From Alphaproteobacteria bacterium (GTDB taxonomy: Bacteria; Pseudomonadota; Alphaproteobacteria; Sphingomonadales; Sphingomonadaceae): a stretch of 64,000 nucleotides of DNA. The stretch lies in NCBI GenBank assembly GCA_030430365.1, contig JAUIFP010000001.1, positions 1-64,000 on the forward strand. Direction: 5' to 3'. Positions 30,081 to 63,934 of the stretch are shown in pieces; within the stretch, counting starts at the first letter, position 1; every line of letters begins with the position of its first letter. The translations under genes were made by a program, and so were the position numbers. Under the pieces are notes generated by a model, which was given only the letters and a program-made list of their open reading frames with translations, was not told the origin of the DNA and searched no databases.

Positions 30081-30123
30081 CCACTGGCCGCTTGGCTTCG
30101 CGCGGGGCGTGTGATAGCAAAGC

Positions 30124-30144: not shown

Positions 30145-30162
30145 CAAGGATGGAGAGGGGCA

Positions 30163-31380: not shown

Positions 31381-31387
31381 GAGAGCG

Positions 31388-32392: not shown

Positions 32393-32412
32393 TCCGAAAG
32401 GAAGCACCGACC

Positions 32413-33423: not shown

Positions 33424-33467
33424 TAGCCTTACTGGACAGCGCCTGTTCTCTCCGCTTAACAGAGCCT

Positions 33468-33986
33468 GTGAGCGAGAAGAAAATACAATCGAACAAGGGC
33501 AAAGGGGGCATGCTGCCCCCTCGTACGCTCTATCTGGTGAAACAGCTCCAGTATAAGACCTATGTCCGGCTGGAAGATGCGCTGCGCCCGCTGGGCATAA
33601 CGTCGGCCCAGTTCCGCATCATGAACACGCTGGAGGATCACGGCAAACGCTCCTCGGCGGAGCTGTCGCGCATGTTCGGCGTCAAACCGCAAACGATGAT
33701 CAAGCAGATCGCGATCCTCGAAAATCGCGATCTCGTGACGCGGACGGCCGCGCCCGAAAACAAGCGCGTTCTGGAAGTCGATCTGACCAAGGAAGGCAAG
33801 CGTGTGCTTGCCAAGGCCACGGCGAGGGCGGTCGAGCTGGACAATTCGGTGATGTCCGCGCTCGATCCCAAAGAGCTGGAGGCGTTCCGCGGCACGATCC
33901 TGACTTTGCTGCAAAGCCTAGGCCATACGGAACACGAAGCGGAAGAATACGAACTGGTGCCCGGCCAGTTAAATAAGCCAGGCTGA
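33468..33986 (+). CDS. MarR family regulator (FerC-like)
   Basis: A 172-residue MarR-type winged-helix protein: LGITSAQFRIMNTL, RSSAELSRMFGVKPQTMIKQI as recognition helix region, then the wing NRDLVTRTAAPENKRVLEVDLTKEG split over residues about 85-110. GTG 33468 starts the frame; ATG 33510 directly behind AAGGGGG is an alternative. It stands immediately upstream of a FerB/FerA pair, as FerC does in SYK-6, where it represses ferBA and responds to feruloyl-CoA-type thioesters. The best palindromic site in the window overlaps its last codons and stop. It probably binds all five related sites described here. Confidence 0.82.
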   Translation: MSEKKIQSNKGKGGMLPPRTLYLVKQLQYKTYVRLEDALRPLGITSAQFRIMNTLEDHGKRSSAELSRMFGVKPQTMIKQIAILENRDLVTRTAAPENKRVLEVDLTKEGKRVLAKATARAVELDNSVMSALDPKELEAFRGTILTLLQSLGHTEHEAEEYELVPGQLNKPG

Positions 33987-33990
33987 TTTA
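33970..33990. promoter_or_regulatory. FerC-like operator upstream of ferBA, best copy
   Basis: TAAATAAGCC and GGCTGATTTA about a central A form a 21-bp palindrome with 9 of 10 symmetric pairs. It overlaps the stop of the MarR gene (33984-33986) and lies 67 bp before the FerB-like start. MarR-family operators are typically of this size and symmetry. Confidence 0.72.
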
Positions 33991-34056
33991 TGTTGCCCGC
34001 CCGGGGCGATTTCCATAGTCTCCTCCCGATAACGCGATATCTGGGAGAGAGAACGC

Positions 34057-34917
34057 ATGAGCCAAGGCATCATCACGCCCGAATTCGATCCGCCGCTGAC
34101 ATGCGCACGCGCGGAGATTGAAAACGGCGTCGGCTGGGCCATCCTGAACCGGCCGGATAAGCGCAACGCGATGAGCCCCGCGCTCAATGACGATATGCTG
34201 GCCATTCTCGAAGCCTTCGAAATCGATGAGCGGGTGAAGGTCGTGGTCATCACCGGTGCGGGTGACACTTTCTCGGCCGGGATGGATCTGAAGGAGTTCT
34301 TCCGCGATCTCGATCATCTGCCCTACAACCAGAAGATGCGGGTGAAGCGTTCCGCCTGGCAATGGCAGTGGAAGACGCTGCTCTATTACCAGAAGCCGAC
34401 CATCGCGATGGTCAATGGCTGGTGCTTCGGCGGGGCCTTCACGCCGCTGGTGGCCTGCGACCTGGCGATCGCGGCCGACGATGCGCAGTTCGGCCTGTCG
34501 GAAATCAATTGGGGCATCATTCCGGGCGGGCAGGTGACCAAGGCGATTACCGCCACCATGGCCCATCGCGATGCGATGTTTTACGCGATCACGGGTGAGA
34601 CCTTCGACGGCAAGAAGGCTTCCGAGATGCGGCTGGTCAACGAATCCGTACCGGCAGAGCGCCTGCGCGAACGCACCTACGAACTTGCGCAGCAGCTGGC
34701 GGGCAAGAACCCCACCGTGATGCGCGGAACCAAGATGGCCGTGCGCATGGTGCAGGAAATGTCCTGGGACGTTTCGGACGACTATCTGATGGCCAAGAGC
34801 TCGGAGGCGCTGTTTCTCGATCCCGAACGCGGGCGTCAGCAGGGTCTGAAGCAGTTTCTCGATGACAAGAGCTACAAGCCCGGCCTTTCCGGCTATGCCC
34901 GCGAAAGCGGCGAGTGA
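34057..34917 (+). CDS. ferB: Feruloyl/hydroxycinnamoyl-CoA hydratase-lyase (FerB-like), copy 2
   Basis: A 286-residue crotonase-fold enzyme with the full set of hydroxycinnamoyl-CoA hydratase-lyase marks: LNRPDKRNAMSP, GAGDTFSAGMDLKEFF, WQWQWKTLLYYQKPTIAMV, GWCFGGAFTPLVACDLAI and GLSEINWGIIPGG with catalytic Glu149. It adds water to the CoA-activated cinnamate double bond and releases the aldehyde plus acetyl-CoA. ATG 34057 follows GGGAGAG. It overlaps the FerA-like gene by four bases (GTGA), and a MarR gene precedes it, reproducing the ferC-ferB-ferA order of SYK-6. The symbol reflects that context; substrate range is not proven. Confidence 0.87.
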   Translation: MSQGIITPEFDPPLTCARAEIENGVGWAILNRPDKRNAMSPALNDDMLAILEAFEIDERVKVVVITGAGDTFSAGMDLKEFFRDLDHLPYNQKMRVKRSAWQWQWKTLLYYQKPTIAMVNGWCFGGAFTPLVACDLAIAADDAQFGLSEINWGIIPGGQVTKAITATMAHRDAMFYAITGETFDGKKASEMRLVNESVPAERLRERTYELAQQLAGKNPTVMRGTKMAVRMVQEMSWDVSDDYLMAKSSEALFLDPERGRQQGLKQFLDDKSYKPGLSGYARESGE

Positions 34918-37046: not shown

Positions 37047-37936
37047 GCGGTGAAGCGATCGAAGTCTGGCGGGGAAGCGTTCAGTCCTGGGAATGCGACC
37101 ATATGGGCCATTTCAACACGCGCTTCTATGTCCAGAAGGCGGAGCTGGCGCTTGCCTATCTCTTCGCCGAACTCGGCATCGATAGTGCGCAGGTAACCGT
37201 CAAATCCCAGCATCACCGGTTCCACCGCGAAGTGCGGGCAGGCGGGCCGATCTATGCAACGGCGCAGGTCGCGAGCATGGGCGAAAGCGATGCGCATGTG
37301 ATGATCCGCATCCTGCACTCTGCCAGCGGGGACCTTTCCGCCAGTTTCAGTTTTCACGTGACTGGAGATGCCCCGTGGAGCGCAGCAAGTCTTGAACAGG
37401 CGGCAGCGATTACCGGGCCGCTGGATGCCGCCGTTCTGCCGCGCGGTTTGCAGGAGGATGAAGGGGCCGACCCCGATGCGAACCGTGAGCGGGCGATCGC
37501 AATCGGTATGCAGGCGACTGGCCGGACCGTTCTGCAAAGCGGCGATTGCGACGCTGAGGGCCGCCTCAGCATGAGCGCCGCGATGGGCATCATTGCCGAT
37601 TCCATACCGAATATGCGCGGTTCCGAATGGCGTGAAGTCCTGAAGCAGACTGCGCCGGGCAAACCGGAGCGGATCGGCGGCGCGCTGGTGGAATTTGCTT
37701 TCCATCATCGCAGCTGGCCAGTTCTGGGTGATCGCGTGGAAGTCTGGTCGGGGCCGGTGGATTGCACCGACAAGGTCACCAAGGTGGCGCATTGGCTGAT
37801 CGATCCCGCATCGGGGGAAGCATTGGCCAGCGTGCGGGCGGTGGGTGTCTCACTTGATCTGGATGCGCGGCGGCTGATCCCGCTGACGCAGGAGGCGCAG
37901 GAAGCCTATCGGCGGGAAGCTGTCGCCGGGCTCTAG
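37043..37936 (+). CDS. Double-hotdog acyl-CoA thioesterase
   Basis: A 297-residue protein with two hotdog domains. The first has DHMGHFNTRFYVQKAELAL, matching the 4-hydroxybenzoyl-CoA-thioesterase-type D-x-x-x-H-x-N-x-x-x-Y signature; the second (about 165-290) has ADSIPNMRGSEW and GGALVEFAFHHRSWPVLGD. It overlaps the FerA-like gene by ATGA and so belongs to the ferBA operon. It could release CoA from a dead-end or intermediate thioester and thereby also lower the inducer level sensed by the MarR protein. That role is inferred. Its stop shares CTAG with the convergent BKACE gene. Confidence 0.8.
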   Translation: MSGEAIEVWRGSVQSWECDHMGHFNTRFYVQKAELALAYLFAELGIDSAQVTVKSQHHRFHREVRAGGPIYATAQVASMGESDAHVMIRILHSASGDLSASFSFHVTGDAPWSAASLEQAAAITGPLDAAVLPRGLQEDEGADPDANRERAIAIGMQATGRTVLQSGDCDAEGRLSMSAAMGIIADSIPNMRGSEWREVLKQTAPGKPERIGGALVEFAFHHRSWPVLGDRVEVWSGPVDCTDKVTKVAHWLIDPASGEALASVRAVGVSLDLDARRLIPLTQEAQEAYRREAVAGL

Positions 37937-38826
37937 GCCTGTTTCTTCAGGTGAAGGATTTCGCGCGCTTCCTGCGGCGTGGCGACGCTCTTGCCCAGGC
38001 AGTCCAGCAAGGTGCATGCCTTTTCCACCAGCTGCGCGTTGGTGGCGAACACGCCGCGCGACAGGTAGAGATTGTCTTCCAGCCCCACGCGCACATGGCC
38101 GCCCATCAGGGCCGTCTGCGCCACGATCGGCATCTCTTCGCGCGCTATCCCGAATGCGCCCCACAGCGCGCCTTCGGGCAGGATGCTGTGCATGAATTCC
38201 AGCGATTTGAGCCCGCCCGGGATCCCCCATTTTACGCCCAATGCGAACTGGAAGAATGGCGGCCCGTCGATCAGCCCTTCTTCCATCAGCGTCTTGCCCA
38301 TCACGATATCGCCTGAATCGAACACTTCCAGTTCGGGCTTCACGCCCAGTTCCTGAAACTTCTTGGCCATCAGGCGCATTGCGCGCGGCGTGTTCATATA
38401 GACCGCTTCCATCGGCCCGAAGAGGCGGTTGCCGGCGGTGATGTCGAACGATGCCAGTTCCGGCAGGCTGCGCACGACATGCCGCATCCGGATGTCGACC
38501 GGGTACATCTTGCTGTTGGGCAGGGCCTTCGCCTCGTCTTCCGGATCCGGGAAGAACATCGCGCCCTGGCCGCAGGTGAGGTTCAGAACGATATCGATGC
38601 CGTTGTCCCGCACCCTGTCGACGACTTCATTGAACAATTCCGGATCGTCGGAGCTTCTGCCCGTTTCCGGATCGCGCACATGGATGTGGGCGACGGAAGC
38701 ACCGGCCTTGGCCGCTTCGATACAGTCATTGGCGATCTGTTCGGGCGTGATGGGAAATGCGGGATGCTTGGGATGCGGCAGCGATCCGCCTGTGACTGCG
38801 CAGGTCAGTATCGTCTTGTCGCTCAT
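37933..38826 (-). CDS. BKACE family beta-keto acid cleavage enzyme, copy 1
   Basis: A 297-residue zinc-dependent TIM-barrel enzyme of the 3-keto-5-aminohexanoate cleavage family, which exchanges acetyl-CoA with a beta-keto acid to give acetoacetate plus a new CoA ester. It shows TILTCAVTGG, the metal site VAHIHVRDPETGR, and the RVGLEDNLYLSRG block with metal-binding Glu. ATG 38826 follows GGGAGA. A second member lies at 63 kb and is clearly diverged near the N-terminus. The keto-acid specificity cannot be read. It converges on the thioesterase and is 44 nt downstream of the RidA gene on the same strand, so the two are probably co-transcribed. Confidence 0.84.
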   Translation of the reverse strand: MSDKTILTCAVTGGSLPHPKHPAFPITPEQIANDCIEAAKAGASVAHIHVRDPETGRSSDDPELFNEVVDRVRDNGIDIVLNLTCGQGAMFFPDPEDEAKALPNSKMYPVDIRMRHVVRSLPELASFDITAGNRLFGPMEAVYMNTPRAMRLMAKKFQELGVKPELEVFDSGDIVMGKTLMEEGLIDGPPFFQFALGVKWGIPGGLKSLEFMHSILPEGALWGAFGIAREEMPIVAQTALMGGHVRVGLEDNLYLSRGVFATNAQLVEKACTLLDCLGKSVATPQEAREILHLKKQA

Positions 38827-52317: not shown

Positions 52318-53055
52318 TTGGCATCACCAATCATGCTCGTGACGGGCGGCAGCCGAGGTATCGGCGCGGCCATCGTCCGCCTCGCCGCCGAACGCGGCTA
52401 TGACGTTGCGTTCAACTATGCCAGCCGGCGGGACGAAGCTGAAAAGATCGCGGACGAGGTCAGGGCCAAGGGGCAGCGGGCGCTCGTTGTTCAGGCCGAC
52501 ATGGCGAGTGAGGCGGACATCGTGAACATGTTCGAGCAAACCGATGCCGAGCTCGGCCGGCTCGACTGCATGGTCTACAATGCGGGCATCGGCCCTTCGC
52601 CCGGCCGGCTTGCAGATGCCGATTGGGGGGAGCTGCGCCGGGTAATGGATGTGAACCTGCTGGGCGCGCATATTGCATGCCGTGAGGCGGTCAAGCGCAT
52701 GTCTACCGAGCGTGGCGGGCAGGGCGGAAGCATCGTCCTGATGGGCTCGCGCGCCGGCTATTACGGCGCTCCCGGAAGGGCGATCGTCTATGCGACGTCC
52801 AAGGGCGGCATGGACGCGCTCAATTACGGCCTCGGCAAGGAAGTGGCGGCCGAAGGGATCCGCGTGAACCTGGTTTCGCCAGGGCCGATTTCAACCGACA
52901 TGAACAATGAACAGTCTGCTCCGGAGCGGGTGAAAGAGATACCGATGGGCCGCTATGGCAAGCCGGAAGAGGTCGCCTCTGCCGTGCTCTTCCTTGCCTC
53001 CAGCGAGGCTTCCTTCGTCTCGTCGGCCAGCCTCATGGTCAGCGGCGCACGCTGA
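52318..53055 (+). CDS. Short-chain dehydrogenase/reductase 1
   Basis: A 245-residue classical SDR: VTGGSRGIGAAIVR (NAD(P) motif), DCMVYNAGI, catalytic Ser in LMGSRAGYYG and YATSK, and the SPGPISTDM segment. TTG 52318, behind GGAGGAGAGA, is the best start; the frame opens upstream inside the LacI-type operator. It heads the SDR pair of the catabolic cassette. It should oxidise a hydroxyl or reduce a keto group of a sugar-acid-like substrate; direction and substrate unknown. Confidence 0.85.
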   Translation: MASPIMLVTGGSRGIGAAIVRLAAERGYDVAFNYASRRDEAEKIADEVRAKGQRALVVQADMASEADIVNMFEQTDAELGRLDCMVYNAGIGPSPGRLADADWGELRRVMDVNLLGAHIACREAVKRMSTERGGQGGSIVLMGSRAGYYGAPGRAIVYATSKGGMDALNYGLGKEVAAEGIRVNLVSPGPISTDMNNEQSAPERVKEIPMGRYGKPEEVASAVLFLASSEASFVSSASLMVSGAR

Positions 53056-53085
53056 GACAGGCCCGGAAAATCAGGAGATAGCAAG

Positions 53086-53826
53086 ATGACTGCACCTGTT
53101 ATGCTCGTCGCTGCCGGAAGCCGCAGCATTGGCGCCGCGATTGCGCGCAAGGCCGCGGATGACGGTTATGATGTTGCGATCAATTTCGTCAGCAACCGGG
53201 AGGCTGCCGAAGGCGTAGCTGAATATGTTCGGGGTAAGGGCCGCAAAGCCGCCCTTATCCAGGCCGACATGTCCAAGGATGACGAAATCCGCAAAATGTT
53301 CGCAGAGTTTGACCAGCATTTCGACCGCCTCGATTGCCTGGTTTACAATGCCGGCGGCGCGGGCGGGAAGGGATCCCCGCTGGCCGACGTTCCCACCGAA
53401 ACCTTGCGCAAGGCGCATGATCTCAATGCCCTGGGCGCGCATTTCTGTGCCGCCGAGGCGATCCGGCGAATGTCGACCAAGAATGGCGGCGACGGCGGAA
53501 ACATCGTGTTCATCACTTCGCGCTCGGCCGAGTATGGCAATCCGGGGCTTGCCGTTTGGTACGCCTCCACCAAGCGCGCGCAGGAGGTACTGGCGACCGC
53601 CCTCAGCAAGGAAGTGGCGGAGGATGGGATCCGCGTAAATGCCGTCTCGCCCGGCCCGATCCATACTGATGCCAACGATCCGAATGTATGGCCGGAGCGG
53701 ATCAACTGGATCCCCATGCGGCGCTTCGGCAAGCCGCCGGAAGTGGCCAATGCGGTATTGTTCCTGGCATCGCCGGAAGCCTCTTTCATCACAGGCGTGA
53801 TCCTCAACGTATCGGGAGGGCGGTAG
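53086..53826 (+). CDS. Short-chain dehydrogenase/reductase 2, altered cofactor motif
   Basis: A 246-residue SDR paralogue of its neighbour. The catalytic Ser (ITSRSAEYG) and YASTK are intact, but the dinucleotide motif reads AAGSRSIG where TGxxxGxG is normal, so the second and third of the invariant residues are replaced. Cofactor binding may be changed or lost. LVYNAGGAG and SPGPIHTDA are present. ATG 53086 has AGGAG upstream and lies 30 nt after the first SDR. The two could form a heteromer; that is speculation. Confidence 0.82.
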   Translation: MTAPVMLVAAGSRSIGAAIARKAADDGYDVAINFVSNREAAEGVAEYVRGKGRKAALIQADMSKDDEIRKMFAEFDQHFDRLDCLVYNAGGAGGKGSPLADVPTETLRKAHDLNALGAHFCAAEAIRRMSTKNGGDGGNIVFITSRSAEYGNPGLAVWYASTKRAQEVLATALSKEVAEDGIRVNAVSPGPIHTDANDPNVWPERINWIPMRRFGKPPEVANAVLFLASPEASFITGVILNVSGGR

Positions 53827-53863
53827 TCGCCAGCTTGGATGGAACTGATTTTTTTGCTTCGAA

Positions 53864-53881
53864 ACAGGTACCGGTAACAGG
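53864..53881. promoter_or_regulatory. LacI-type operator 2, upstream of NHL-repeat gene
   Basis: ACAGGTACC and GGTAACAGG meet at a central CG; the 12-bp core is identical to operator 1. It lies in the 247-bp gap before the gene at 54074, whose start follows GAGAGGATG. Nothing else was seen in the gap. Confidence 0.7.
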
Positions 53882-54073
53882 AATCGATTGCGGATGAGCA
53901 GGCTGCGCCATAAGGTCGGAGCAAGACTGGCGCACTGCTTGCGCGGCTGGCCGAATGGCTAGCGATGCCGACAGACAGCGCAGCCCATAAGGCAGAAAAT
54001 GCCGGGCATATTTCGAATGGATATCCGGGCGACGAAAGTTTGCCCGGGAACGATTGAATGAGAGGATGATGGA

Positions 54074-55096
54074 ATGGCGAAAGAGGAAGTCCGCTTCGAA
54101 CTGGTGCCCAATTGGGAAAAGTGCCCCGAGGGCGACGAATATTCGCATGAAGACGTTGCCGCGGTGGCGTGCGATTCGAAGGACAGGGTCTATCTTCACA
54201 CCCGCAATGCACACCGCGTCATGGTCTATGACGAGGATGGCAACTTCATAAAGAAGTGGGGCGACGGAGTGTTCGGCCGCGCCCACGGCATGACGATCAA
54301 GGACGATATCTGCTATTGCACCGATGACATCCAGAGTGTGATCCGCGTGTTCGACCTGGACGGCAATTTCCAGTGGCAGCTCGGCGAACCGTTCAAGGTA
54401 ACCGACACCGGCTATGGCAATATCCGGGGACGCAAGGCCGAGATCCATCACAACGAATTCGTCGAACGCGCTCTCGGGCCGTTCAATTGCTGCTGCAACG
54501 TCGCGGTTGCCGCGAACGGCGATATCTTCGTTGCCGACGGATACGGCAATGCCCGCATCCATCACTTCGACAAGGACGGCAATCTGCTCAATAGCTGGGG
54601 CGAAGTCGGCACCGAGCCCGGCCAGTTCCATCTGCCGCATGGTATCGCGCTGGACAATGACGAGAATGTCATTGTCTGCGATCGGGAGAATGACCGCTTG
54701 CAGTTCTTCACCCGCGAAGGCGAGTTCATCAAGGAGTGGACGGACGTGCTCCGCCCCACCGATTGCACGGTGGATGAAGACGGGCTGATCTATGTTTCAG
54801 AGCTCTGGCGTCCGGCGGAGCCGGGGCAGGGCAGCTTCGTTCACGGCTTCCCCGATACCGATCTGCCCGGTCGGGTGACGGTCTATTATCCCGATGGTAC
54901 GATTGCCGCGCGTTGGGGCGCGGATAGTGAGAACCGCACGGCGCCCGGCAATTTCATTGCTCCGCACGGCCTTGCACTGGACAGCAAGGGCAGCCTCTAT
55001 GTGGCTGAAGTTTCGACGACGTTCGGCGGTTTTCGCAAGATCCCGAAGGAAGAAACCTGCGCGCATCAGATCCAGAAATTCCGCCGCGTGCGGTAA
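54074..55096 (+). CDS. NHL-repeat protein, peptidyl-alpha-hydroxyglycine lyase-like
   Basis: A 340-residue six-bladed NHL-type propeller. Repeated blade segments are DRVYLHTRNAHRVMVYDEDG, IFVADGYGNARIHHFDKDG, VIVCDRENDRLQFFTREG and SLYVAEVS. This pattern is used by the peptidyl-alpha-hydroxyglycine alpha-amidating lyase family in bacteria, whose real substrates are mostly unknown. No signal peptide is seen. It is the first gene of an operon with ThuA-like and unknown proteins under LacI-type operator 2; it may be a lactonase or lyase on a sugar-acid derivative. Reaction is not decided. Confidence 0.78.
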   Translation: MAKEEVRFELVPNWEKCPEGDEYSHEDVAAVACDSKDRVYLHTRNAHRVMVYDEDGNFIKKWGDGVFGRAHGMTIKDDICYCTDDIQSVIRVFDLDGNFQWQLGEPFKVTDTGYGNIRGRKAEIHHNEFVERALGPFNCCCNVAVAANGDIFVADGYGNARIHHFDKDGNLLNSWGEVGTEPGQFHLPHGIALDNDENVIVCDRENDRLQFFTREGEFIKEWTDVLRPTDCTVDEDGLIYVSELWRPAEPGQGSFVHGFPDTDLPGRVTVYYPDGTIAARWGADSENRTAPGNFIAPHGLALDSKGSLYVAEVSTTFGGFRKIPKEETCAHQIQKFRRVR

Positions 55097-55105
55097 TTGG
55101 GGGGC

Positions 55106-55828
55106 ATGATGCCACAACCACAGGTCGCCAACCTCGTCTGCGGCAGTCCCTGGCGCAATCACGACTATGACAATGCACGGCTGCGCCTTGGCCAGGTGCT
55201 CTACGATCTGAACGGGATCAGGACAGATTGCTACCAGGATTACGAGGATCTTGGCGGCATCGCGTTGGGCGATCTGCTTGTGACCTATACTTCGCAGATC
55301 GAGGTGACCGAGAAAGCTTCCACCAATCTGCGCCGCTGGCTGGAGAAGGGCGGCCGCTGGTTCGCCATGCACAGCACCACCTCGGTGGCCGGCAATATGG
55401 CGATGGCGAGCCTGCTCGGTAGCCAGTTCATCGATCACCCGCCCTATCATGAGTTCACTGTGAACGTGATGAAGCCGGATGATCCGCTGCTTGAGGGGAT
55501 ATCGGACTTTACCGTCGCGGACGAGCTGCACTGCGTCGAGAAAGTCACTGAGGATATCGAGGTGCTGCTCCAGGCGACCTGGGGCGGCAGGGGCATTCTG
55601 GGCAAGGACCACGAAGTGGCGGACCGGCCGCTCATGTATCGCCGCAAGATCGGGGATGCCGGTGGCGGGGTGCTCTATCTGGCACTGGGCCATGCCAATA
55701 GGCCTTATGACAAGCCGCGGCCTAACTATCCCGACCAACCCGAATATCGCGGCCCATGGGGCAGCGAGCCTTTCGACACGATTATACGCCGCGGCTGCGA
55801 ATGGGCAGCCAGACGCAGGGAGTTCTAG
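55106..55828 (+). CDS. ThuA-like domain protein
   Basis: A 240-residue ThuA (trehalose-utilisation) fold protein: the loop LVCGSPWRNHDYDNARL, then GGRWFAMHSTTSVAG, FIDHPPYHEFTVNV and YLALGHANRPYD are the usual core strands. ThuA-type proteins relate to class I glutamine amidotransferases and occur in sugar and 3-keto-glycoside pathways; their activities are poorly known. Start uncertain: ATG 55106 or 55109 behind GGGGGG; a TTG at 55097 directly follows the previous stop. Second gene of the operon. Confidence 0.76.
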   Translation: MMPQPQVANLVCGSPWRNHDYDNARLRLGQVLYDLNGIRTDCYQDYEDLGGIALGDLLVTYTSQIEVTEKASTNLRRWLEKGGRWFAMHSTTSVAGNMAMASLLGSQFIDHPPYHEFTVNVMKPDDPLLEGISDFTVADELHCVEKVTEDIEVLLQATWGGRGILGKDHEVADRPLMYRRKIGDAGGGVLYLALGHANRPYDKPRPNYPDQPEYRGPWGSEPFDTIIRRGCEWAARRREF

Positions 55829-55832
55829 AGAC

Positions 55833-56186
55833 ATGGCAGTTGAAATGATGCGGCTTATCCTCAAGCCGGCCGGAGCCGACGAGGCGACCGCCGCCGCAAA
55901 GCAGATCTGGGTCGATCTGGCAGTGGACAGCGAAACCGGGCAGAGCACGGGGCCGTTTCCGGCATGGGGCCGGGTGGGTGATTGGCAGCAGCCCGGCACT
56001 CTGGTTCCATTCACGCTGATGATGGACGGCCGGATGGACACCGGCATCTATGCGAGCGACGATCAGCGCAGCGATGTGCTCGAAATTCGCAAGGCTGACC
56101 TGGGCGAGGGCAAGACGATTGTCCTCAAGTCCGGAAGCGATACGAGCAATTATGTGATTGAGAGCCTCAAGCCGCTTATCGGCTGA
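55833..56186 (+). CDS. Unknown protein, 117 aa, in the cassette
   Basis: Not recognised. It starts at ATG 55833, 4 nt after the ThuA-like stop, so it is almost certainly translated from the same message. The 117 residues are mostly beta-strand-like, with MMRLILKPAGADEATA near the start and WQQPGTLVPFTLMMDGRMD in the middle; no cysteine or histidine-rich site and no membrane segment. The small, soluble, beta-rich form would suit a subunit or binding module. Low-information sequence; function open. Confidence 0.65.
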   Translation: MAVEMMRLILKPAGADEATAAAKQIWVDLAVDSETGQSTGPFPAWGRVGDWQQPGTLVPFTLMMDGRMDTGIYASDDQRSDVLEIRKADLGEGKTIVLKSGSDTSNYVIESLKPLIG

Positions 56187-56213
56187 CGCGGGTCGCTGGC
56201 AGAACGCTGCGCT

Positions 56214-56666
56214 TCAGTTCTTCATCCAGGGATTGTCCTTGTCGGCCTGGACCTCCGGGCCGTGGCCGATCCGCGAAAACAGCTTGATTACGCGGCCGTC
56301 CGGATCTTCGATGCCAACTGCCCAGGATAGGCCGGTCGCGAAAACGCCCGAGTGCTTGATGTCGCCCAGGCTATCCAGATGCTCCGACCATGCCTCCAGC
56401 GCGGCGAGGTCGGGAACGTGCAGCGTCACGGGATCGAAGCGCTTCGCCGCCTTGGCATGTTCGGGCAGAAGCCGCAGGTCCAGCGTCGCAAAGCCATCGA
56501 TGCGGCAGATATAGGCATAGATATTCCCGTCCGCGTCGACATGGTCGGCCGCCGCGATGCGTTCTGCGCCAAACACGCGTTCGTAAAACGCAAGCGAGCG
56601 GGCGCAATCCGCCACTGCAAATTTCAAGGTGCGAAGCCCGTCCAGCTTGGGTGCATCACCAGTCAT
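56214..56666 (-). CDS. VOC family protein, 150 aa
   Basis: A 150-residue glyoxalase/bleomycin-resistance-fold protein: LKFAVADCARSLAFYERVFG is the first module, DPVTLHVPDLAALEAWSEHL the second, and DPDGRVIKLFSR the last. The metal-ligand pattern is only partly clear. ATG 56666. It is convergent with the NHL/ThuA operon and lies 41 nt downstream of the enolase-superfamily gene on the same strand, so it is probably the second gene of that operon. Lyase, isomerase or epimerase activity is possible. Confidence 0.76.
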   Translation of the reverse strand: MTGDAPKLDGLRTLKFAVADCARSLAFYERVFGAERIAAADHVDADGNIYAYICRIDGFATLDLRLLPEHAKAAKRFDPVTLHVPDLAALEAWSEHLDSLGDIKHSGVFATGLSWAVGIEDPDGRVIKLFSRIGHGPEVQADKDNPWMKN

Positions 56667-56707
56667 TCAATTTGGCCTTTCGCTGTTTGGGATACTTTGC
56701 GCCGGAA

Positions 56708-57763
56708 TCAGGCAACGGCGCATTTGGCGAGCACGTCTTCATCGAATTCCAGCCCGAGCCCGGCAGCTTCCGGAAGAACCACTTCGCCGTCTTCGATCCG
56801 CATCGGTTGCTTGAACAAGGGCTGGCCCCAGGGGACGAGGCCGACAATCAGACCGTTGGGGACCGCCGCAAGGCCATGGCTGAGTGCTTCGGATGCCAGA
56901 TGATTCACAACTTGCCTGCCATGGGCTTCGGCCATGTGCGCGACTTTCAGAAAGCCGGTGAGCCCCAAATCCTGGTCGATCATGACATAGTCGGAGCATC
57001 GGCCTTCCAGCAGGCGCGCGAATTCATGCGCATACTGAAACACCTCGCCGGCGCAGGTGCGCTGATCGATGGTGTCCGTGACCTGGCGCATAGCCTCATA
57101 GTCGTGAGAGGCGACCGGGTCTTCGATCCAGAACAGGCCGAGTTCTTCGGTTTCGCGGGCGAAGCGGACGGCATTGCGCAGGCCCCATTGGAAATTGCCG
57201 TCCACGATGATCTTGATATCAGGGCCAACGCATTCGCGGATAAAGCGTACATGCTCGATCGCTGTTTCCAGCGGGGCGAGCCCGCATGGAGCTTTGACGG
57301 TCCGAAAACCGCGCCCGATCACATCTTCAAGATGCTTTGCCACCTTGTCCCTCGGCGGGCCGGGCATGAGCCCCCAATTCGCCGAGACGGGCATACGGTT
57401 TCGAAATCCGCCGGCGAGCTTCCAAACCGGAAGACCGGCCGCCTTGCCTGCAATATCCCAGCAGGCGACATCGATTGCGCTTGCTGCGCGCAATTCCAAG
57501 CCAGACAGCGCCGCCCCCAGTTGCCCGGTATAGAGCGCCTTGTGCATGACTTCCGTCCGTGTGGGATCGGAACCGGCCAGGTTGTCGACCATGGCTTCGA
57601 TCAGCAGAACCATGGGCCGTGTGTTTCTGGGATTGATCCGGCTGACATAGGCGATCCCAGTAACGCCTTCATCCGTTTGGAGCTGCAGCGTGACATGGCG
57701 GCCCTTCATCACGCCTTCGAAATCGACATCGACGGCAGCCACCCTGCATCCTGTGATTTTCAA
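56708..57763 (-). CDS. Mandelate racemase/muconate lactonizing enzyme family (enolase superfamily)
   Basis: A 351-residue acid-sugar-dehydratase-like enzyme. Metal ligands are D188 (IIVDGNFQW), E214 (FWIEDPV) and E240 (CAGEV); K157 lies in FRTVKAPCG, and VVNHLASEALSHGL holds a late His. Only one Lys is present where many MLE-type enzymes have K-x-K, and D-x-N at the first metal site is like the mandelate racemase group. TTG 57763 behind GGGAGAAGG is preferred to starts further upstream. It is divergent from the MetE-like gene with LacI-type operator 3 between. It probably dehydrates or racemises a sugar acid. Confidence 0.84.
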   Translation of the reverse strand: MKITGCRVAAVDVDFEGVMKGRHVTLQLQTDEGVTGIAYVSRINPRNTRPMVLLIEAMVDNLAGSDPTRTEVMHKALYTGQLGAALSGLELRAASAIDVACWDIAGKAAGLPVWKLAGGFRNRMPVSANWGLMPGPPRDKVAKHLEDVIGRGFRTVKAPCGLAPLETAIEHVRFIRECVGPDIKIIVDGNFQWGLRNAVRFARETEELGLFWIEDPVASHDYEAMRQVTDTIDQRTCAGEVFQYAHEFARLLEGRCSDYVMIDQDLGLTGFLKVAHMAEAHGRQVVNHLASEALSHGLAAVPNGLIVGLVPWGQPLFKQPMRIEDGEVVLPEAAGLGLEFDEDVLAKCAVA

Positions 57764-57949
57764 ATGCCTTCTCCCATTCGCGGCATGCCCGGCACTATGT
57801 GCATTGTCTTCGTAACGCTGTTTCCTGGCACGAGCAGCCCGCCTTTTGCCGCAGTGTGGAATGCCCATTGGCAAACCAGTATGCCGACAGACGATTACAT
57901 CCCCCGCCAAGAATCGATATTTTGCCCTTCATACACACACCGAACGCTG

Positions 57950-57967
57950 CTAGGTACCGGTAACAAA
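57950..57967. promoter_or_regulatory. LacI-type operator 3, between enolase-superfamily and MetE-like genes
   Basis: CTAGGTACC and GGTAACAAA meet at a central CG; the 12-bp core is identical to operators 1 and 2. It lies 33 bp before the MetE-like start in a 236-bp divergent gap, so it may serve both directions. Confidence 0.7.
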
Positions 57968-57999
57968 ATTTGACAATCTTGTGGAGCGGATAAGAACTA

Positions 58000-59214
58000 A
58001 TGCGTCATTCGACCGATCATATTCTCAGCAGCCATGGCGGAAACCTTCCTCGTCCGGCGGAATTCGACAAGCTTCTGGCAAAGGCCAGCGAGCATCAGGA
58101 AGAAGTGCAGGCAAAGCTGCCCGGCGCGGTCGAATGGGTGATCGACAAGCAGATCGAATGCGGCGTCGATATCATCAATGACGGCGAATATGTTAAAGCT
58201 GCCGAAGGGGGCAATTACGGGTCCTACATGGCGGCACGCTCTGTCGGCTTCGATGTGCGCGATACGCCTGAAGGAACCAAGCCCAAGCGGGGCTTCACCG
58301 CCGAACGCGAGATTCCCGATTTCCCGGGCTTCTATAAAAGCGGCCTGTGGTTCGCGGGATCCGGCGGCCCGATCCGTCCCGGTTTCGCAACTCCTGGAGG
58401 GCAGATGATCAATTTCGGCGCCCGGCAGCAGACCTGTACAGGCGATCTGAAATATACCGGCTACGATCTGATCCAGGCCGATATCGATGCAATCAAGAAG
58501 GGGCTTGAAGGCAAGAGCGGAGTGGACGGCTTTGTCGCTTCGCTTGGACCGCTCAGCCTCGGCGCCGGCAAGACCAACCTGCATTATGCCAGCGAAGAAG
58601 AATATATGTTCGCTGTCGCGGACGTCATGCACGAGGAATACAAGGCGATCACGGATGCAGGCCTGATCGTGCAGGTGGACGAACCCGAATTCGCCACGAC
58701 CTGGAGCTTCTATCCCGACTGGACGGTCGAGGACCTGCGCAAATATCTCGATTTCGCGGTCGAGATCATCAACCACTCGCTGCGCGGATTGCCGGAAGAG
58801 CTCGTGCGCTTCCACATGTGCTGGGGTTCGGGCCATCGCCCGCATGTGCACGATATCGGCTTCGAACATCTCGCGGACAAGCTGCTGGGCATCAATGCGC
58901 AATGCTACACGTTCGAAGCTTCGAACCCGCGCCATGCGCATGAATATCACGTCTTCGAGGATCTCAAGCTGCCCGACGGCAAGATCATCGCTCCGGGCGT
59001 TGTCGGCCATTATACCGACCTTGTCGAACACCCCGAGCTCGTTGCCGAGCGCCTGATCAACTATGCCAAGCTGGTCGGGATGGAAAACGTCCATGCCAGC
59101 ACCGATTGCGGCATCGGTTCGCGCGTCGGGCATGAAGAGATTGTGTGGGCGAAGCTCAAAGCAATGAGCGACGGCTGCCAGATTGCGACCAAGCGCTTGA
59201 AAGCGGGGCTCTGA
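58000..59214 (+). CDS. MetE C-terminal-like zinc methyltransferase (cobalamin-independent methionine synthase II family)
   Basis: A 404-residue single-domain relative of the catalytic half of MetE. The zinc ligands are kept in order: H272 and C274 (RFHMCWGSGH), E306 (TFEASNP) and C370 (ASTDCGIGSR). The N-terminal half of true MetE is missing, so it cannot be a standard methionine synthase. Members of this branch include methyl transferases to thiols and epoxyalkane:CoM transferase. ATG 58000. With an MFS transporter and acid-sugar enzymes around it, a demethylation or thiol-alkylation step in catabolism is plausible but unproven. Confidence 0.82.
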   Translation: MRHSTDHILSSHGGNLPRPAEFDKLLAKASEHQEEVQAKLPGAVEWVIDKQIECGVDIINDGEYVKAAEGGNYGSYMAARSVGFDVRDTPEGTKPKRGFTAEREIPDFPGFYKSGLWFAGSGGPIRPGFATPGGQMINFGARQQTCTGDLKYTGYDLIQADIDAIKKGLEGKSGVDGFVASLGPLSLGAGKTNLHYASEEEYMFAVADVMHEEYKAITDAGLIVQVDEPEFATTWSFYPDWTVEDLRKYLDFAVEIINHSLRGLPEELVRFHMCWGSGHRPHVHDIGFEHLADKLLGINAQCYTFEASNPRHAHEYHVFEDLKLPDGKIIAPGVVGHYTDLVEHPELVAERLINYAKLVGMENVHASTDCGIGSRVGHEEIVWAKLKAMSDGCQIATKRLKAGL

Positions 59215-59353
59215 CCGGATGGCGAGGGCCATCCGTGACAGGTCTATGAGCGTTTAGAAATCAAGGCGCGTCGAAGCGATGAATTGAAGCGAATACGCTC
59301 TCGCAAGGGCGCGACATAAGCTGCTGAAAAAGCGGCAGGTGAGAGGACTATGT

Positions 59354-60754
59354 ATGGCGAGTACGACCGCAGACGGTGAAGCTCCAAAAGGCGAGCCTGC
59401 GGGTGAAGCCAAGAGCGAAGCGCAAAAGCTCGCCGAACAGCCGTGGCCCCCGCGCAAGGATGCCTACTACTCGCTGATCGTCATGACGATCGTTGTGATG
59501 TTCACAGTGATCGATCGGCAGATCATGAGCGTCATGATCGAGCCGATGAAGGAGACCTATCAGGTCAGCGACACGATGATCGGCCTGCTGGTAGGGGCGG
59601 CGTTTTCGATCACCTACGGGATTGCCGGCCTTCCGATCGCGCGCTTTGCGGACCAGACCAATCGCCGCAATCTCGTTGCAGCATCGATCGGCTTCTGGAG
59701 TTTTTGCACGGCCGCCTGCGGCATTTGCCAGAATTACTGGCAGATATTCATTGCCCGTCTGGGCATTGGCATTGGCGAATCCGGTTACGGCCCAGCGGCA
59801 TGGTCGATCGCGACTGACAATTTCCCGCGGGAAAAAGTCGCAATGGCGACCGGCACATATGGCATCGGCGCCATGGTCGGCACCGGCATGGCCATGTTCA
59901 TGGGCGGGGCCGTATTGGCGCTGGTCCAGGGCATGCCCCTGGTCGAATTGCCTTTTGGCGGGGTGATCCATCCGTGGCAGTGGGCTTTCATCGTGGTGGG
60001 CCTGCCGGGCCTGCTTTGGGCTTTGGTTGTCATGACGACCAAGGAGCCGCCCCGCCGCGGCGTGGCCGCTGGAGAGAAATCTCCCAAGGTTCCACTCAAA
60101 GAGCTTGGCAAATGGCTGAAGGATGATTGGCGGACTTATACTGCGGTCATCCCCGCTTCAGGCATGAAGCAGCTGATCGCCGCGGGGCAGCAGGTATGGG
60201 GCGTCACCTTCTTCCACCGCGAGTTCGATTGGAGCGTGTCTTATTCCGCCGTGATGATGGGATTGATGACGATTATTGTCTCGCCCGTCGCCATGATTCT
60301 CGGCGGCAAGCTCTCGGAATATCTGGCCAAGAACGGCCGCCACGATGCCAATCTGCGCGTGGTGATCTATGGCTTGCTCGGTTCGGTGCCATGCCTCGCT
60401 CTCGCGCCCCAGCTGCCCAATGGCTATGCGTCCCTGACGCTGTTCGGCGTCGGGATTTTCATCGGGACCTTGGGTTTCGGGCCCGGGATCGCGGCGTTCC
60501 AGGTCATCACTCCCAACCGCATGCGCGCACAGGTCAGTGCACTCAGCCAGTTCGGCAGCAATGTGCTGGCCTACGCTCTGGCCCCGGTGATCGTGGCGTT
60601 GTTCACGGATTTCGTGTTCCGGGATCCGGCCATGCTGAAATACTCGATGACGGCCACTACGCTCTCGATGGGCATTATCGCTCTCCTGCTCGCGCTGCAG
60701 GGGTTGAAGTCATATGGCCGATCCTATGAGCGGGCCGTGCGGGAGAATTTCTGA
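59354..60754 (+). CDS. MFS transporter
   Basis: A 466-residue major-facilitator protein with about twelve hydrophobic segments. The N-terminal domain has FTVIDRQIMSVMIEPMKETY and the loop RFADQTNRRNLVAAS; FIARLGIGIGESGYGPA is the motif-C-like helix of the anion:cation symporter/spinster-like group. ATG 59354 follows GAGAGGA. The first 40 residues are polar and disordered-looking. It lies 139 nt after the MetE-like gene and is the only clear importer in the cassette; the solute is likely the pathway's substrate. Confidence 0.84.
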   Translation: MASTTADGEAPKGEPAGEAKSEAQKLAEQPWPPRKDAYYSLIVMTIVVMFTVIDRQIMSVMIEPMKETYQVSDTMIGLLVGAAFSITYGIAGLPIARFADQTNRRNLVAASIGFWSFCTAACGICQNYWQIFIARLGIGIGESGYGPAAWSIATDNFPREKVAMATGTYGIGAMVGTGMAMFMGGAVLALVQGMPLVELPFGGVIHPWQWAFIVVGLPGLLWALVVMTTKEPPRRGVAAGEKSPKVPLKELGKWLKDDWRTYTAVIPASGMKQLIAAGQQVWGVTFFHREFDWSVSYSAVMMGLMTIIVSPVAMILGGKLSEYLAKNGRHDANLRVVIYGLLGSVPCLALAPQLPNGYASLTLFGVGIFIGTLGFGPGIAAFQVITPNRMRAQVSALSQFGSNVLAYALAPVIVALFTDFVFRDPAMLKYSMTATTLSMGIIALLLALQGLKSYGRSYERAVRENF

Positions 60755-60775
60755 CCCTGCGATTGGGCTTGCCGG

Positions 60776-61861
60776 CTAGCGTCCCGGGCGGTGCAACTGG
60801 CGCCAGGCGCCATGCGCCTCGCCCAGGGCCCGCGGTGAACCGAAGCCGCCGCTCTTGGTGATGAGAGTGTAATCGCGGCCATTGGCATTGCCTGTTGCCA
60901 ACGGCATCCCGGGTGCCAGGCTGCAGCGAGGCACGAGCAGGTCGATGCCGGCTTGGCGGACGAATGCTGCCGCGGTGTCTCCGCCGCTTAAAAGGAGCGC
61001 GGAAATATCTTGTTCTTCGGAAATCCTGAGTGCGGCAGCCGCAAGGTCGTTCGCAACGGCCGCAGGCTCCCGCTCGGCAGCGTCGGGGCGCAGCAATATC
61101 AAATCGGCGGACGCGGCCGAATGCGGCAATGGAGCATCTCCGACGATTTCCAGATAGGGAATTTCCGATTTCGATAATGCGGGAATCTGGCCGAGCGTGA
61201 TCGGATCGCGCGAGCCGATCACCATGAGCATGCGCGCATCGCCGGGCAGAGTTGTGCGATGCCCCGCCTGAGCCCTCTTGGTTTCTCCAGGGGCGAGCGC
61301 ATGCGCCATGGCTTCGGCAAGGCCGCTTGCACCAACCGCGATAGCCGTCTTGCAATCTCCGATTGCCTCGTCTGCGATACGGGCCATCTCCGCCATGTCG
61401 CCGCAGTCTCTAACTTCCCATTCGGCTTGCCAGCCGGCCAATTCCGCAATGGGCAAGGGGGACTCTATACCGAACCCGGTCACCATCCCGCCGCTGGTAA
61501 AGCGCCCCATTGAAGGAATGGCGGGGCTGACGATCGCACGTGTCCGGCCGCTCAGGCCCATGATCGCAGCCAGTTCTGCAGCGATATTGCCTTTCATGCG
61601 AGAATCGACTTTTTTGAAAAGGCATTCGGCATTCCAGGGGGCGATAATCTGCCATGCCCTGGCCGCCGCTTGCGCAGCCTCTTCAGGCGCCATCTGCCGG
61701 CTGTCGACATTGAGGGCGACGACATCGAAACCGGCAAAGGATGCCGTGCTTACCGCATCGAGGGAGGGGAAGACCGCTCCATGCAGGCCTGCCTCTGCAA
61801 ATGCCACGCAGCTGTCCAGCGCACCTGTCAGGTCGTCGGCCAGGATCGCCAGTCGCAGCAA
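60776..61861 (-). CDS. Four-carbon acid sugar kinase (DUF1537/OtnK family)
   Basis: A 361-residue kinase of the family that phosphorylates D-threonate, L-threonate or D-erythronate at C4. It has the N-terminal LAILADDLTGALDS, KKVDSRMKGNIAAEL, and the nucleotide-binding LLLSGGDTAAAF with ITKSGGFGSPRAL at the end. TTG 61861 follows GGAGGATATCCG; the frame continues upstream but nothing coding-like is seen. At 361 residues it is shorter than the usual 400-440. It is divergent from pdxA-like and converges on the MFS gene. With PdxA2 it completes the known acid-sugar-4-phosphate route. Confidence 0.86.
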   Translation of the reverse strand: MLRLAILADDLTGALDSCVAFAEAGLHGAVFPSLDAVSTASFAGFDVVALNVDSRQMAPEEAAQAAARAWQIIAPWNAECLFKKVDSRMKGNIAAELAAIMGLSGRTRAIVSPAIPSMGRFTSGGMVTGFGIESPLPIAELAGWQAEWEVRDCGDMAEMARIADEAIGDCKTAIAVGASGLAEAMAHALAPGETKRAQAGHRTTLPGDARMLMVIGSRDPITLGQIPALSKSEIPYLEIVGDAPLPHSAASADLILLRPDAAEREPAAVANDLAAAALRISEEQDISALLLSGGDTAAAFVRQAGIDLLVPRCSLAPGMPLATGNANGRDYTLITKSGGFGSPRALGEAHGAWRQLHRPGR

Positions 61862-61984
61862 CGGATATCCTCCCCTTCTCCTGTGCGGCGGCGCGGGCAA
61901 CGAGTATACGTTCCAGCGCTTCCAGCATTCGGAACTAACGCTTTTCCTTACCATTTGCATGGGTTAGCGCAGATGGGAGCGGCG

Positions 61985-62002
61985 TTTTGGTACCGGGATC
62001 AG
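61985..62002. promoter_or_regulatory. LacI-type operator 4 (half-degenerate), upstream of pdxA2
   Basis: TTTGGTACC is identical to the left arm of operator 1; the right arm GGGATCAGA departs from GGTAAC. It lies 21 bp before the pdxA2 start, in the divergent gap with the kinase gene. Likely weaker or asymmetric binding. Confidence 0.55.
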
Positions 62003-62022
62003 AATAGAGGTAAGCAGGCCTT

Positions 62023-63033
62023 ATGCGCAAACTTCTGATCACTATGGGTGACCCGGCCGGAGTGGGGCCGGAAATCATCTGCCGCGCGCTTGCCGAGTTG
62101 GATGAAGCACGCCGATCCAGAATGGTAGTGATCGGTACGCTCGAAGTTCTGGAGCGGGCAAGGCAAGTCACGGGCGCGAATGTCACCTTCTCGGCCAGTC
62201 CCCAGCCTGGCGCGATCCATGTCGAGCAGGTCGGCCTTCCGGTGCCCCTCCCGCAATGGGGCCGCGTGGAGCCCGCGGCAGGCGATGCTGCCTTTCGCTA
62301 TGTCGAACGGGCGGTCAGGATGGCTCAGGAAGGCGGTGGCTGCATAGTAACGGCCCCGATCAACAAGGAAGCGCTCAATCGTGCCGGGCATCATTATGAT
62401 GGCCATACGGGGATGATCGCGGCTCTCACGAAGTCGCCGACATCATTCATGCTGTTGGCGTCGGAGGTGTTGTCTGCGATCCACGTTTCGACCCATGTTT
62501 CGCTGCAGGATGCGATCGGGCGGGTCACCGCTTCACGCGTGCTCGCTACGATCGAGGCCGGCCATCAATTCTTTCGCAGGATCGGTGTCGAATCTCCGCG
62601 AATTGCCGTGGCCGGACTCAATCCGCATTGCGGAGAGAACGGCCTGTTCGGCAGTCAGGAGGCGAAATTCATTGCGCCCGCCATCTCAGAGGCGAAGCGT
62701 ATGGGCATTGCCGTAACCGGGCCGATATCGCCCGATTCCGTGTTCCATAGGGCGTTGCAAGGCGAATTCGATCTGGTCGTCGCCCAGTATCACGATCAGG
62801 GGCATATCCCCGTAAAGCTCGCCGCGTTCGAGACGACGGTGAACATTTCCCTGGGTCTGCCGATAGACCGCACATCCGTGGATCATGGCACCGCGTTCGA
62901 CATTGCGGGCACCGGACAGGCATCGCACCGCAATATGCTTTCCGCGATCGCCTATGCGGAGACTCTGGCCGAACTGCCGCGCGCAGAAGAACGCACATCC
63001 AGCACACACAAAACACAGCCGGAGACATCGTAA
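62023..63033 (+). CDS. PdxA family 4-phospho-acid dehydrogenase (PdxA2)
   Basis: A 336-residue zinc-dependent dehydrogenase of the PdxA family: [13 protein letters not shown], metal His in DGHTG and in [10 protein letters not shown], and [14 protein letters not shown]. In pyridoxine synthesis PdxA oxidises 4-phospho-threonine; the PdxA2 branch oxidises 4-phospho-threonate or -erythronate, followed by decarboxylation to dihydroxyacetone phosphate. The kinase gene divergent to it makes PdxA2 the better call. ATG 62023. It is followed by the BKACE gene after 28 nt on the same strand. Confidence 0.84.
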
Positions 63034-63061
63034 CGGCGTTCCGGGGAGAGGAGCCAACACA

Positions 63062-63934
63062 ATGCGAAAGATCATACTCACCTGTGCCGTGACAGGCGCA
63101 TCGATCACTGCGGACAAGAATGACGCAGTGCCTGTCACACCGCAGGAAATCATAAAGTCCTGCCTCGATGCACACGCGGCAGGGGCGGCGGTCGTCCATA
63201 TTCACGTGCGCGATCCCGAAACTGCCCGGCCGGCCACCGATCTTCATCTCTATCGCGAAGTGGTCGAAGGTATCCGTGCGGCCGGAACGGACGTCGTCAT
63301 CAATTTGACGACCGGCCCCGGGCAGCATTTCTACAACGATCCTGCCAAGCCGAGCGTCATGCTGGACAAGAGCTGGTTGCTGACGCCTGAAGAGCGCGTG
63401 GCGCATGTCGCAGCGCTCAAGCCCGATATTTGCAGTCTCGACGTTTGCAGCTTCAACCGCCCGGATCACATCGTCGTGAATTCGCTCGATACGATCCGCC
63501 TCATGGCCGGGGCCATCCGGGATACGGGCGTGAAGCCCGAACTGGAGATTTTCGAGGCGGGCCAGATGGGCATGGTGAGCGATCTTCAGGCAGAAGGGCT
63601 GATCGACGGCCCGCTGCTTTTCTCTTTCGTGATGGGGACCAAATACACCGCGCCGCCAACACCGCAGATGGTGAGCGTCCTGGCCGGTCTGGCGCCCGCA
63701 GGTTCATACTGGGCTGCATTCGGCGCAGGTGCCCATGAATTCCCGATCGCGGCCCAATCGGTGACGAATGGCGGCCAGATCCGTGTCGGCCTGGAAGACA
63801 ATCTGTATCTCCGGCGCGGCGTGAAAGCGAAGAGCAATGCCGAATTGGTGGAGCGCGCCGTGCAGCTAATCGATATTCTGGGATACGATCTCGCGACCCC
63901 TGCCGAGGCGCGCGAGATGCTGCAGATCAAATAG
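63062..63934 (+). CDS. BKACE family beta-keto acid cleavage enzyme, copy 2
   Basis: A 290-residue BKACE protein: ILTCAVTGASITADKN, the zinc site VVHIHVRDPETAR, LKPDICSLDVCSFN, and IRVGLEDNLYLRRG with the late metal Glu. ATG 63062 follows GAGAGGAG. The opening CAVTGASITAD differs from the CAVTGGSLPHP of copy 1, so keto-acid specificity may differ. It closes the pdxA2 operon and suggests that a beta-keto acid arises in the cassette pathway and is cleaved with acetyl-CoA. Confidence 0.84.
   Translation: MRKIILTCAVTGASITADKNDAVPVTPQEIIKSCLDAHAAGAAVVHIHVRDPETARPATDLHLYREVVEGIRAAGTDVVINLTTGPGQHFYNDPAKPSVMLDKSWLLTPEERVAHVAALKPDICSLDVCSFNRPDHIVVNSLDTIRLMAGAIRDTGVKPELEIFEAGQMGMVSDLQAEGLIDGPLLFSFVMGTKYTAPPTPQMVSVLAGLAPAGSYWAAFGAGAHEFPIAAQSVTNGGQIRVGLEDNLYLRRGVKAKSNAELVERAVQLIDILGYDLATPAEAREMLQIK

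Follow-up and report, generated by a model that had tools for sequence, protein, structure and literature searches.

An accessory catabolic island of sphingomonads, built of known enzyme families and apparently new as a combination

Background

DUF1537 kinases and PdxA2 act on erythronate and threonate, and a D-threonate/D-erythronate route through these two proteins was reportedly described by Zhang in 2016, as cited in PMC9997740. What does such a pair do when it is one part of a bigger gene island? The question is raised by positions 52318-63934 of a 64,000-nucleotide stretch (hereafter the window), bases 1-64000 of contig JAUIFP010000001.1 (C10) of an alphaproteobacterium of the Sphingomonadaceae (GCA_030430365.1; G000, 3.02 Mb in 163 contigs, 78.5% complete). 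An original prediction, made from the sequence alone, had placed there a catabolic gene set with its own importer that is larger than the DUF1537-PdxA2 route, and our results support this view. All the families it had named were present by Pfam/NCBIfam; its title did not mention two further proteins, one of 117 aa (55833-56186) and one with a VOC/glyoxalase fold (56214-56666), nor the major facilitator superfamily (MFS) importer, which appeared in its text alone. It had not recognised the combination as a described pathway, and we likewise found none in the literature, among the best-ranked matches and mostly outside subscription journals. We conclude that the island is genuine, partly conserved and apparently new as a combination, and that it is built of known families. 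Its surprising part is a recurrent pair of proteins, one like peptidyl-alpha-hydroxyglycine alpha-amidating lyase (PAL) and one like MetE.

Conservation and recurrence of the island

A sister genome (G003, contig C60) carries an identical gene set in identical order. When the two genomes were compared, the ratio of nonsynonymous to synonymous substitution rates (dN/dS) ranged from 0.020 to 0.174 across the 12 genes of the island, and the frames of the sister contained no stops. All 12 are under purifying selection, DUF1537 (0.174) and the enolase (0.126) being the least constrained. The shared order, together with the low dN/dS and the lack of stops, argues that the gene set did not arise by chance.

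Gene-neighbourhood searches in other genomes recovered the whole set in the sister and parts of it, recurring together, in sphingomonads. A close relative of the ThuA-like protein (at least 62% identity) was found in seven loci, namely in our genome, the sister, S. nicotianae, SCN18 P_65_26, S. xanthum (C2 and C3) and SCN18 B_66_9. The MFS importer was present in all seven, the NHL protein and the MetE-like protein in six each, the enolase in five, and a beta-keto acid cleavage enzyme (BKACE) and a short-chain dehydrogenase (SDR, at least 45% identity) in four each, while DUF1537 and PdxA2 were confined to our genome and the sister. By its own account, the original prediction would have been refuted by conservation limited to the kinase and pdxA2; the reverse was seen, those two being the variable part. 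It should be noted that these counts record presence anywhere in the stretch read, that an absence holds for that stretch alone, and that four of the seven stretches end at a contig end. The distance between the MFS gene and ThuA is about 24 kb in S. nicotianae and 15 kb in S. xanthum C2.

The clade of the MetE-like protein was sought in 84,980 species genomes by short exact peptide patterns, which gave at least 23 loci, a lower bound because of this reliance on exact patterns. They belong to sphingomonads or unplaced alphaproteobacterial metagenome-assembled genomes (MAGs), plus two Chloroflexota. After stretches of further genomes were added and duplicates dropped (L056, L064, L073 and L076 omitted; L061 is the same as L045), our locus table comprised 26 distinct loci, of which 24 have a member of the clade; presence was scored by tblastn at a query coverage of at least 60%. 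The NHL protein was present in 16 of the 24 (35% identity in L075, at least 51% in the other 15), and tblastn did not find it in the stretches read of L010, L044, L045, L058, L068, L074, L077 and L078. In nine of the 16 loci (L060, L062, L063, L065, L066, L067, L069, L071 and L072) the NHL gene immediately precedes the MetE-like gene, both on one strand and 11-36 bp apart; eight of these are named sphingomonads and L062 is an alphaproteobacterial MAG. The window itself has the two genes 2.9 kb apart with other genes intervening. Elsewhere, an SDR directly precedes BKACE in L058, and NHL, ThuA, BKACE and MFS stand in a row in L088, where no MetE-clade member occurs in the 34 kb read. The clade members outside Proteobacteria, on the Chloroflexota MAG contigs L074 and L075, are 63% and 56% identical, and in L075 the genes for NHL, a luciferase-like protein and MetE are consecutive.

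Among 396 genomes of the order, our own included, the ThuA family was found in four, the enolase in three and the MetE clade in six (cut-offs 1e-50, 1e-100 and 1e-130). The three enolase genomes are the three with a close ThuA and all belong to the six MetE-clade genomes; the fourth ThuA match was only 38% identical and in a different context. Across 398 genomes taken phylum-wide, a close ThuA (E up to 1e-50) was found in our own genome alone. With regard to plasmids, no record had a best match of at least 60% identity for MetE, NHL, BKACE, SDR1 or the enolase, and the whole gene set was annotated in none of the 14 plasmid neighbourhoods inspected. The patchy distribution within the order fits an accessory island, which is catabolic and apparently sphingomonad.

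The NHL propeller and the MetE-like enzyme

The NHL beta-propeller protein (54074-55096, plus strand) is a candidate PAL-type zinc lyase. Its predicted model, with a predicted local distance difference test (pLDDT) score of 85, superposed on PAL (3fvz) with Z 35.0 and a root-mean-square deviation of 2.5 over 279 aligned residues. Equally good superpositions were obtained with NHL domains from Thin and from TRIM proteins (Z 33-36), so the fold alone is weakly informative for PAL identity. The candidate assignment comes from the aligned residues: His585, His690 and His786 of PAL, which we take to be its zinc ligands, and the presumably catalytic Tyr654 and Arg706 correspond to H71, H189, H298, Y157 and R204, and all five were kept in 10 of 10 sequences (the window included) in each of three MAFFT modes. 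Some caution applies to H189, as one of five aligned Thin repeats likewise has a His there, and PAL Arg533 falls at an uncertain alignment column near which R44 is invariant. The protein thus shares with PAL the six-bladed NHL propeller, the three zinc-binding His, Tyr654 and Arg706, and differs from it in being bacterial, in its catabolic locus and in an identity of only about 27%. The best NCBIfam match was ScyF of scytonemin synthesis, at 107.8 of 350 bits far below the cut-off. The original prediction had called the protein lyase-like; with the five PAL residues kept, PAL-type is the sharper name. PAL cleaves carbinolamides, releasing glyoxylate, and by analogy with this chemistry a hemiaminal- or hemiacetal-type cleavage would be a natural guess for the NHL protein.

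The MetE-like protein (58000-59214, plus strand) was modelled (pLDDT 89) as a single catalytic domain that superposed on 3rpd with Z 34.4 and on T. maritima MetE with Z 33.2, and comparison of the models showed that the folate half of MetE is missing. As aligned to 3rpd, the zinc ligands His641, Cys643, Glu665 and Cys726 correspond to H272, C274, E306 and C370, which were invariant in 35 of 35 sequences. Ser433, Glu484 and Asp599 are listed as homocysteine-binding residues in the parts of Price et al. (PMC7857596) available to us. Glu484 and Asp599 are kept as E63 and D227, and the Ser433 position is occupied by Asn, as it is in all 19 clade rows of the alignment, the other 16 rows having Ser (13) or Arg (3). 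In comparison with the core methionine synthases MesA-MesD, as the same parts of that paper present them (PMC7857596; MesD is 3rpd), the protein has the same single MetE catalytic domain, the same four zinc ligands and two of the three homocysteine residues; it differs in the Asn for Ser433, in sitting in catabolic loci and in having several paralogues in the genome. In our genome 13 stretches matched the MetE-like protein, some being fragments of the same gene. Paralogues lie on contigs C1, C37, C98 and C125 (L010, L048, L013 and L012), and those of L010 and L048 adjoin MFS genes related to that of the window.

ComA, an enzyme of coenzyme M (CoM) synthesis, was found in none of four carrier genomes (our genome and the sister about 79% complete, the other two near complete) by a search that detected two of 14 controls; MesX likewise had no match in the four, in a search that detected none of the control genomes. 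Given its single domain, the missing folate half, the Asn for Ser433 and the failure to find ComA in the four carriers, we assign the protein neither to the methionine synthases nor to the epoxyalkane:CoM transferases, though it may still work by thiol activation.

In nine loci the NHL gene adjoins the MetE gene, and their products might act in consecutive steps. We raise, tentatively and in the knowledge that it may well prove wrong, the possibility of a new catabolic chemistry: a zinc carbinol lyase of the PAL type and a zinc-thiolate enzyme of the MetE type would follow one another in degrading a substrate class outside known pathways, extended in one branch by ThuA, the altered enolase, SDR and BKACE.

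A possible pathway

The preferred reading is that the island breaks down its substrate through an SDR and BKACE, in the lineage of our genome to a four-carbon (C4) sugar acid; we regard it as a working model whose chances are somewhat below even. SDR1 (52318-53055, plus strand; Pfam adh_short_C2, motifs TGGSRGIG and YATSK, 98% in the sister) starts with TTG at 52318, preceded by GGAGGAG. Its paralogue SDR2 (53086-53826, plus strand; 54%) has AAGSRSIG instead of the standard glycine motif and may have an altered cofactor site. BKACE (63062-63934, plus strand) is a clear member of Pfam PF05853 (309.3 bits against a cut-off of 24.8) and reached no named substrate class, its best NCBIfam equivalog, NF052387, giving 244.9 bits against a cut-off of 382. 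The original prediction had its precursor split into a C4 acid and a beta-keto acid; BKACE is not the source of a beta-keto acid but consumes one, giving acetoacetate and an acyl-CoA.

The closest parallel is the oxidative deoxyribonate pathway of Pseudomonas simiae, where, according to the accessible parts of PMC6365646, an SDR leads to a 3-keto acid from which BKACE is proposed to yield acetoacetate and glyceryl-CoA, the SDR, BKACE and two MFS genes form one putative operon, and a kinase takes the freed acid. In the island, the substrate would enter through the MFS importer (59354-60754, plus strand; Pfam/NCBIfam) and perhaps also through TonB receptors encoded downstream. It would then be processed by the NHL protein, the MetE-like enzyme, the ThuA-like protein (55109-55828, plus strand; Pfam PF06283, 61.1 bits against 33.4) and the mandelate-racemase-type (MR) enolase (56708-57910, start perhaps 57742, minus strand; MR_MLE_N and MR_MLE_C), proteins whose families are established and whose part in the processing is presumed. 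An SDR would oxidise a 3-hydroxy acid to the 3-keto acid, which BKACE would cleave with acetyl-CoA, giving acetoacetate plus an acyl-CoA after the pattern of the deoxyribonate pathway. In the lineage of our genome, the acyl part would be a C4 sugar acid, erythronate or threonate, from a 2-deoxyhexonate-like chain: one carbon longer than the deoxyribonate chain, 2-deoxyhexonate would give trihydroxybutanoyl-CoA and from it erythronate or threonate. The added DUF1537 kinase and PdxA2 would finally convert the C4 acid to dihydroxyacetone phosphate and CO2. Such a model would explain why pdxA2 lies 28 bp ahead of the BKACE gene.

In support of this reading, NHL, ThuA, enolase, MetE, SDR, BKACE and MFS recur in other sphingomonads; the gene rows of L058 and L088, the co-occurrence of the close enolase, the close ThuA and the MetE clade among the 396 genomes, the extra PdxA copy of G000 and G003, and the PAL residues also point to it. 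Several observations weigh against it. In the stretches read, BKACE was missing from three of the seven ThuA loci and an SDR of at least 45% identity from three, and in the window SDR1 and BKACE are 10 kb apart. No CoA-transferase or thioesterase that could free the C4 acid was recognised in the cluster, and no NCBIfam sugar-acid equivalog was reached by BKACE, the kinase or PdxA2, or passed its cut-off among the best 25 listed for each SDR. Moreover, the expected products of a dehydratase of the MR type are 2-keto-3-deoxy acids rather than 3-keto-2-deoxy acids, and the model leaves the NHL, ThuA, MetE and enolase steps without a specified role. As far as the accessible parts of PMC6365646 go, the island shares with the deoxyribonate system the SDR, BKACE and MFS, a kinase that consumes the freed sugar acid, and the lack of a dedicated acid-freeing gene; NHL, ThuA, the enolase and the MetE-like protein are not among the genes listed there, and the kinase of that system is a glycerate kinase rather than DUF1537 with PdxA2. 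Unlike the deoxyribonate locus, 52318-63934 contains no recognised lactonase.

With regard to the two other processing enzymes, the enolase keeps the metal ligands D237, E263, E289 and H337. The KxK lysine pair, which we take to be the MR-type enolase motif, reads KxP in all four members aligned, and a plasmid relative has KMK. A sequence search of the PDB at E 0.01 found no relative of the ThuA-like protein.

The DUF1537-PdxA2 pair

The kinase gene (60776-61861, minus strand, TTG start) encodes a short DUF1537 protein of 361 aa with both Pfam domains partly covered (SBD_N 95.3 bits, cut-off 25; NBD_C 50.6, cut-off 28.3). It is not a pseudogene, given the lack of stops, its dN/dS and the readable motifs ADDLTG, KKVDS and SGGDT. 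PdxA2 (62023-63033, plus strand) was assigned by family profile and genome copy count. It is not the sole PdxA of the genome, since another copy, presumably the housekeeping one, lies on contig C96. Both proteins missed their NCBIfam equivalogs: DUF1537 gave 119 of 450 bits for D-threonate kinase, and PdxA2 gave 309.6 of 583 for D-threonate 4-phosphate dehydrogenase and reached generic pdxA only. The island resembles the D-threonate/D-erythronate route in having DUF1537 beside an extra PdxA copy, and differs from it in the missed cut-offs and in that the pair is here one add-on within a bigger island.

Among eight genomes, two PdxA copies occur in G000 and G003 and one in each of the other six, including the island carriers G154 and G397; DUF1537 occurs in G000, G003 and G154, in the last at C2:98356, on the same contig as the ThuA locus and 47 kb away from it. 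DUF1537 and PdxA2 also had the two lowest codon scores of the 66 genes above 600 bp in a 98-kb stretch of our contig, and ranked 2 and 3 from the lowest in G+C content at third codon positions (GC3), with the enolase at 5 and BKACE at 11. This codon and GC3 bias, the copy-number pattern and the presence in only two of seven ThuA loci indicate that the pair, the least conserved part of the island, is an add-on and probably its newest part.

The presence in two of seven ThuA loci and the codon and GC3 ranks, along with a DUF1537 dN/dS that is the island maximum, would also be expected if two unrelated sets merely stood side by side, namely an NHL-ThuA-enolase-MetE-MFS(-BKACE) island beside a threonate/erythronate pair that was acquired independently and shares no intermediate with it. 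We consider this a serious though rather unlikely explanation, because the pair sits between MFS and BKACE, pdxA2 and BKACE are on the same strand with that 28-bp spacing, and the order is kept in the sister.

Other roles for the MetE-like enzyme and the pair

In the original prediction, the MetE-like enzyme would remove a methyl group from an O-methylated precursor. Two sphingomonad plasmids (L091 and L095) do carry distant MetE-like genes (about 32%) near a GcvT-type demethylase homologue, methylenetetrahydrofolate reductase, PurU and FolD, with LigAB in L091 only, but these MetE-like genes belong to a different subfamily. The window protein has neither the folate half nor the Ser of the homocysteine site, we recognised no further gene of the folate cycle in the cluster, and the MetE clade also occurs in loci of widely differing content, which together make demethylation improbable.

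Less probable still is an epoxide-type route in which the MetE-like enzyme would add a thiol to an electrophile and the SDR pair would oxidise the adduct. Epoxyalkane:CoM transferase is a member of the MetE-like superfamily. Its cluster includes a hydroxypropyl-CoM dehydrogenase, according to the accessible part of PMC11507031, and the window offers both an SDR pair and invariant zinc ligands. ComA, however, was found in none of the four carriers, two of them near complete (another thiol such as glutathione could take the place of CoM), and the cluster has no gene that we recognised as encoding a monooxygenase.

4-Hydroxythreonine is a precursor of B6. It is very improbable that DUF1537 and PdxA2 salvage such a precursor without a catabolic role here: the title of Thiaville 2016, as cited in PMC9997740, names a recycling role for DUF1537 kinases, and PdxA2 can catalyse the PdxA reaction according to the accessible part of PMC9997740, but the genome has the other pdxA and the pair is located in a catabolic island.

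If the preferred reading and the assignments of the NHL and MetE-like proteins are true, bacterial relatives of PAL, an animal peptide-hormone enzyme, and single-domain MetE homologues are catabolic enzymes in sphingomonads, and DUF1537-PdxA2 is a known tail grafted onto an unassigned pathway. Many methionine-synthase annotations of single-domain MetE homologues would then mislead; in the plasmid records examined, such homologues were mostly labelled methionine synthases. The recurrence of the island in isolated Sphingobium strains, among them S. xanthum NL9 and S. nicotianae H33, means that the substrate can be found by growth and mutant screens.

Layout and neighbourhood of the island

SDR1, SDR2, NHL, ThuA and the 117-aa gene are all on the plus strand. 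The VOC and enolase genes on the minus strand diverge from the plus-strand MetE and MFS genes, and DUF1537 on the minus strand diverges from plus-strand PdxA2 and BKACE. The 117-aa protein (plus strand) had no Pfam family, and relatives of 43-46% identity occur in three NHL-MetE loci (L066, L071 and L072). The VOC/glyoxalase-fold protein (minus strand; Pfam) was found in our genome and the sister only, among the seven close-ThuA loci.

The end of BKACE at 63934 is where the original prediction stopped, an end point set by the window edge, and the gene set may extend rightward. The next gene of the contig (63964-65037) scores as a tartrate dehydrogenase by NCBIfam (573 bits against a cut-off of 470). 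Beyond it lie two large genes that we read as encoding TonB receptors and then, outside the window, a second small cluster at 72718-77827 (L009:14718-19827). The BKACE of that cluster passed the cut-off for 3,5-dioxohexanoate:acetyl-CoA acetone transferase (484 against 430 bits), and beside it are an AHL-lactonase-like hydrolase and, by eye, a 3-hydroxyisobutyrate-dehydrogenase-like protein, an SDR and MmgE/PrpD; this cluster perhaps serves triacetate-lactone breakdown. Within the window, 28956-38826 encodes, by eye, oxygenases, an amidohydrolase and acyl-CoA enzymes, together with a relative of class III extradiol dioxygenases (31388-32392; 72 bits, below the cut-off) and a third BKACE (37933-38826).

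Finally, in the sphingomonad loci L066, L070, L071 and L072 the MetE-clade and NHL genes are followed by genes for a biphenyl-diol-dioxygenase-like protein, an alpha/beta hydrolase and a luciferase-like monooxygenase and by a RibBA-like gene, with a flavin reductase in addition in L066, L071 and L072. Several of these genes have apparent relatives, as judged by eye, at 12773-19832 of the window.

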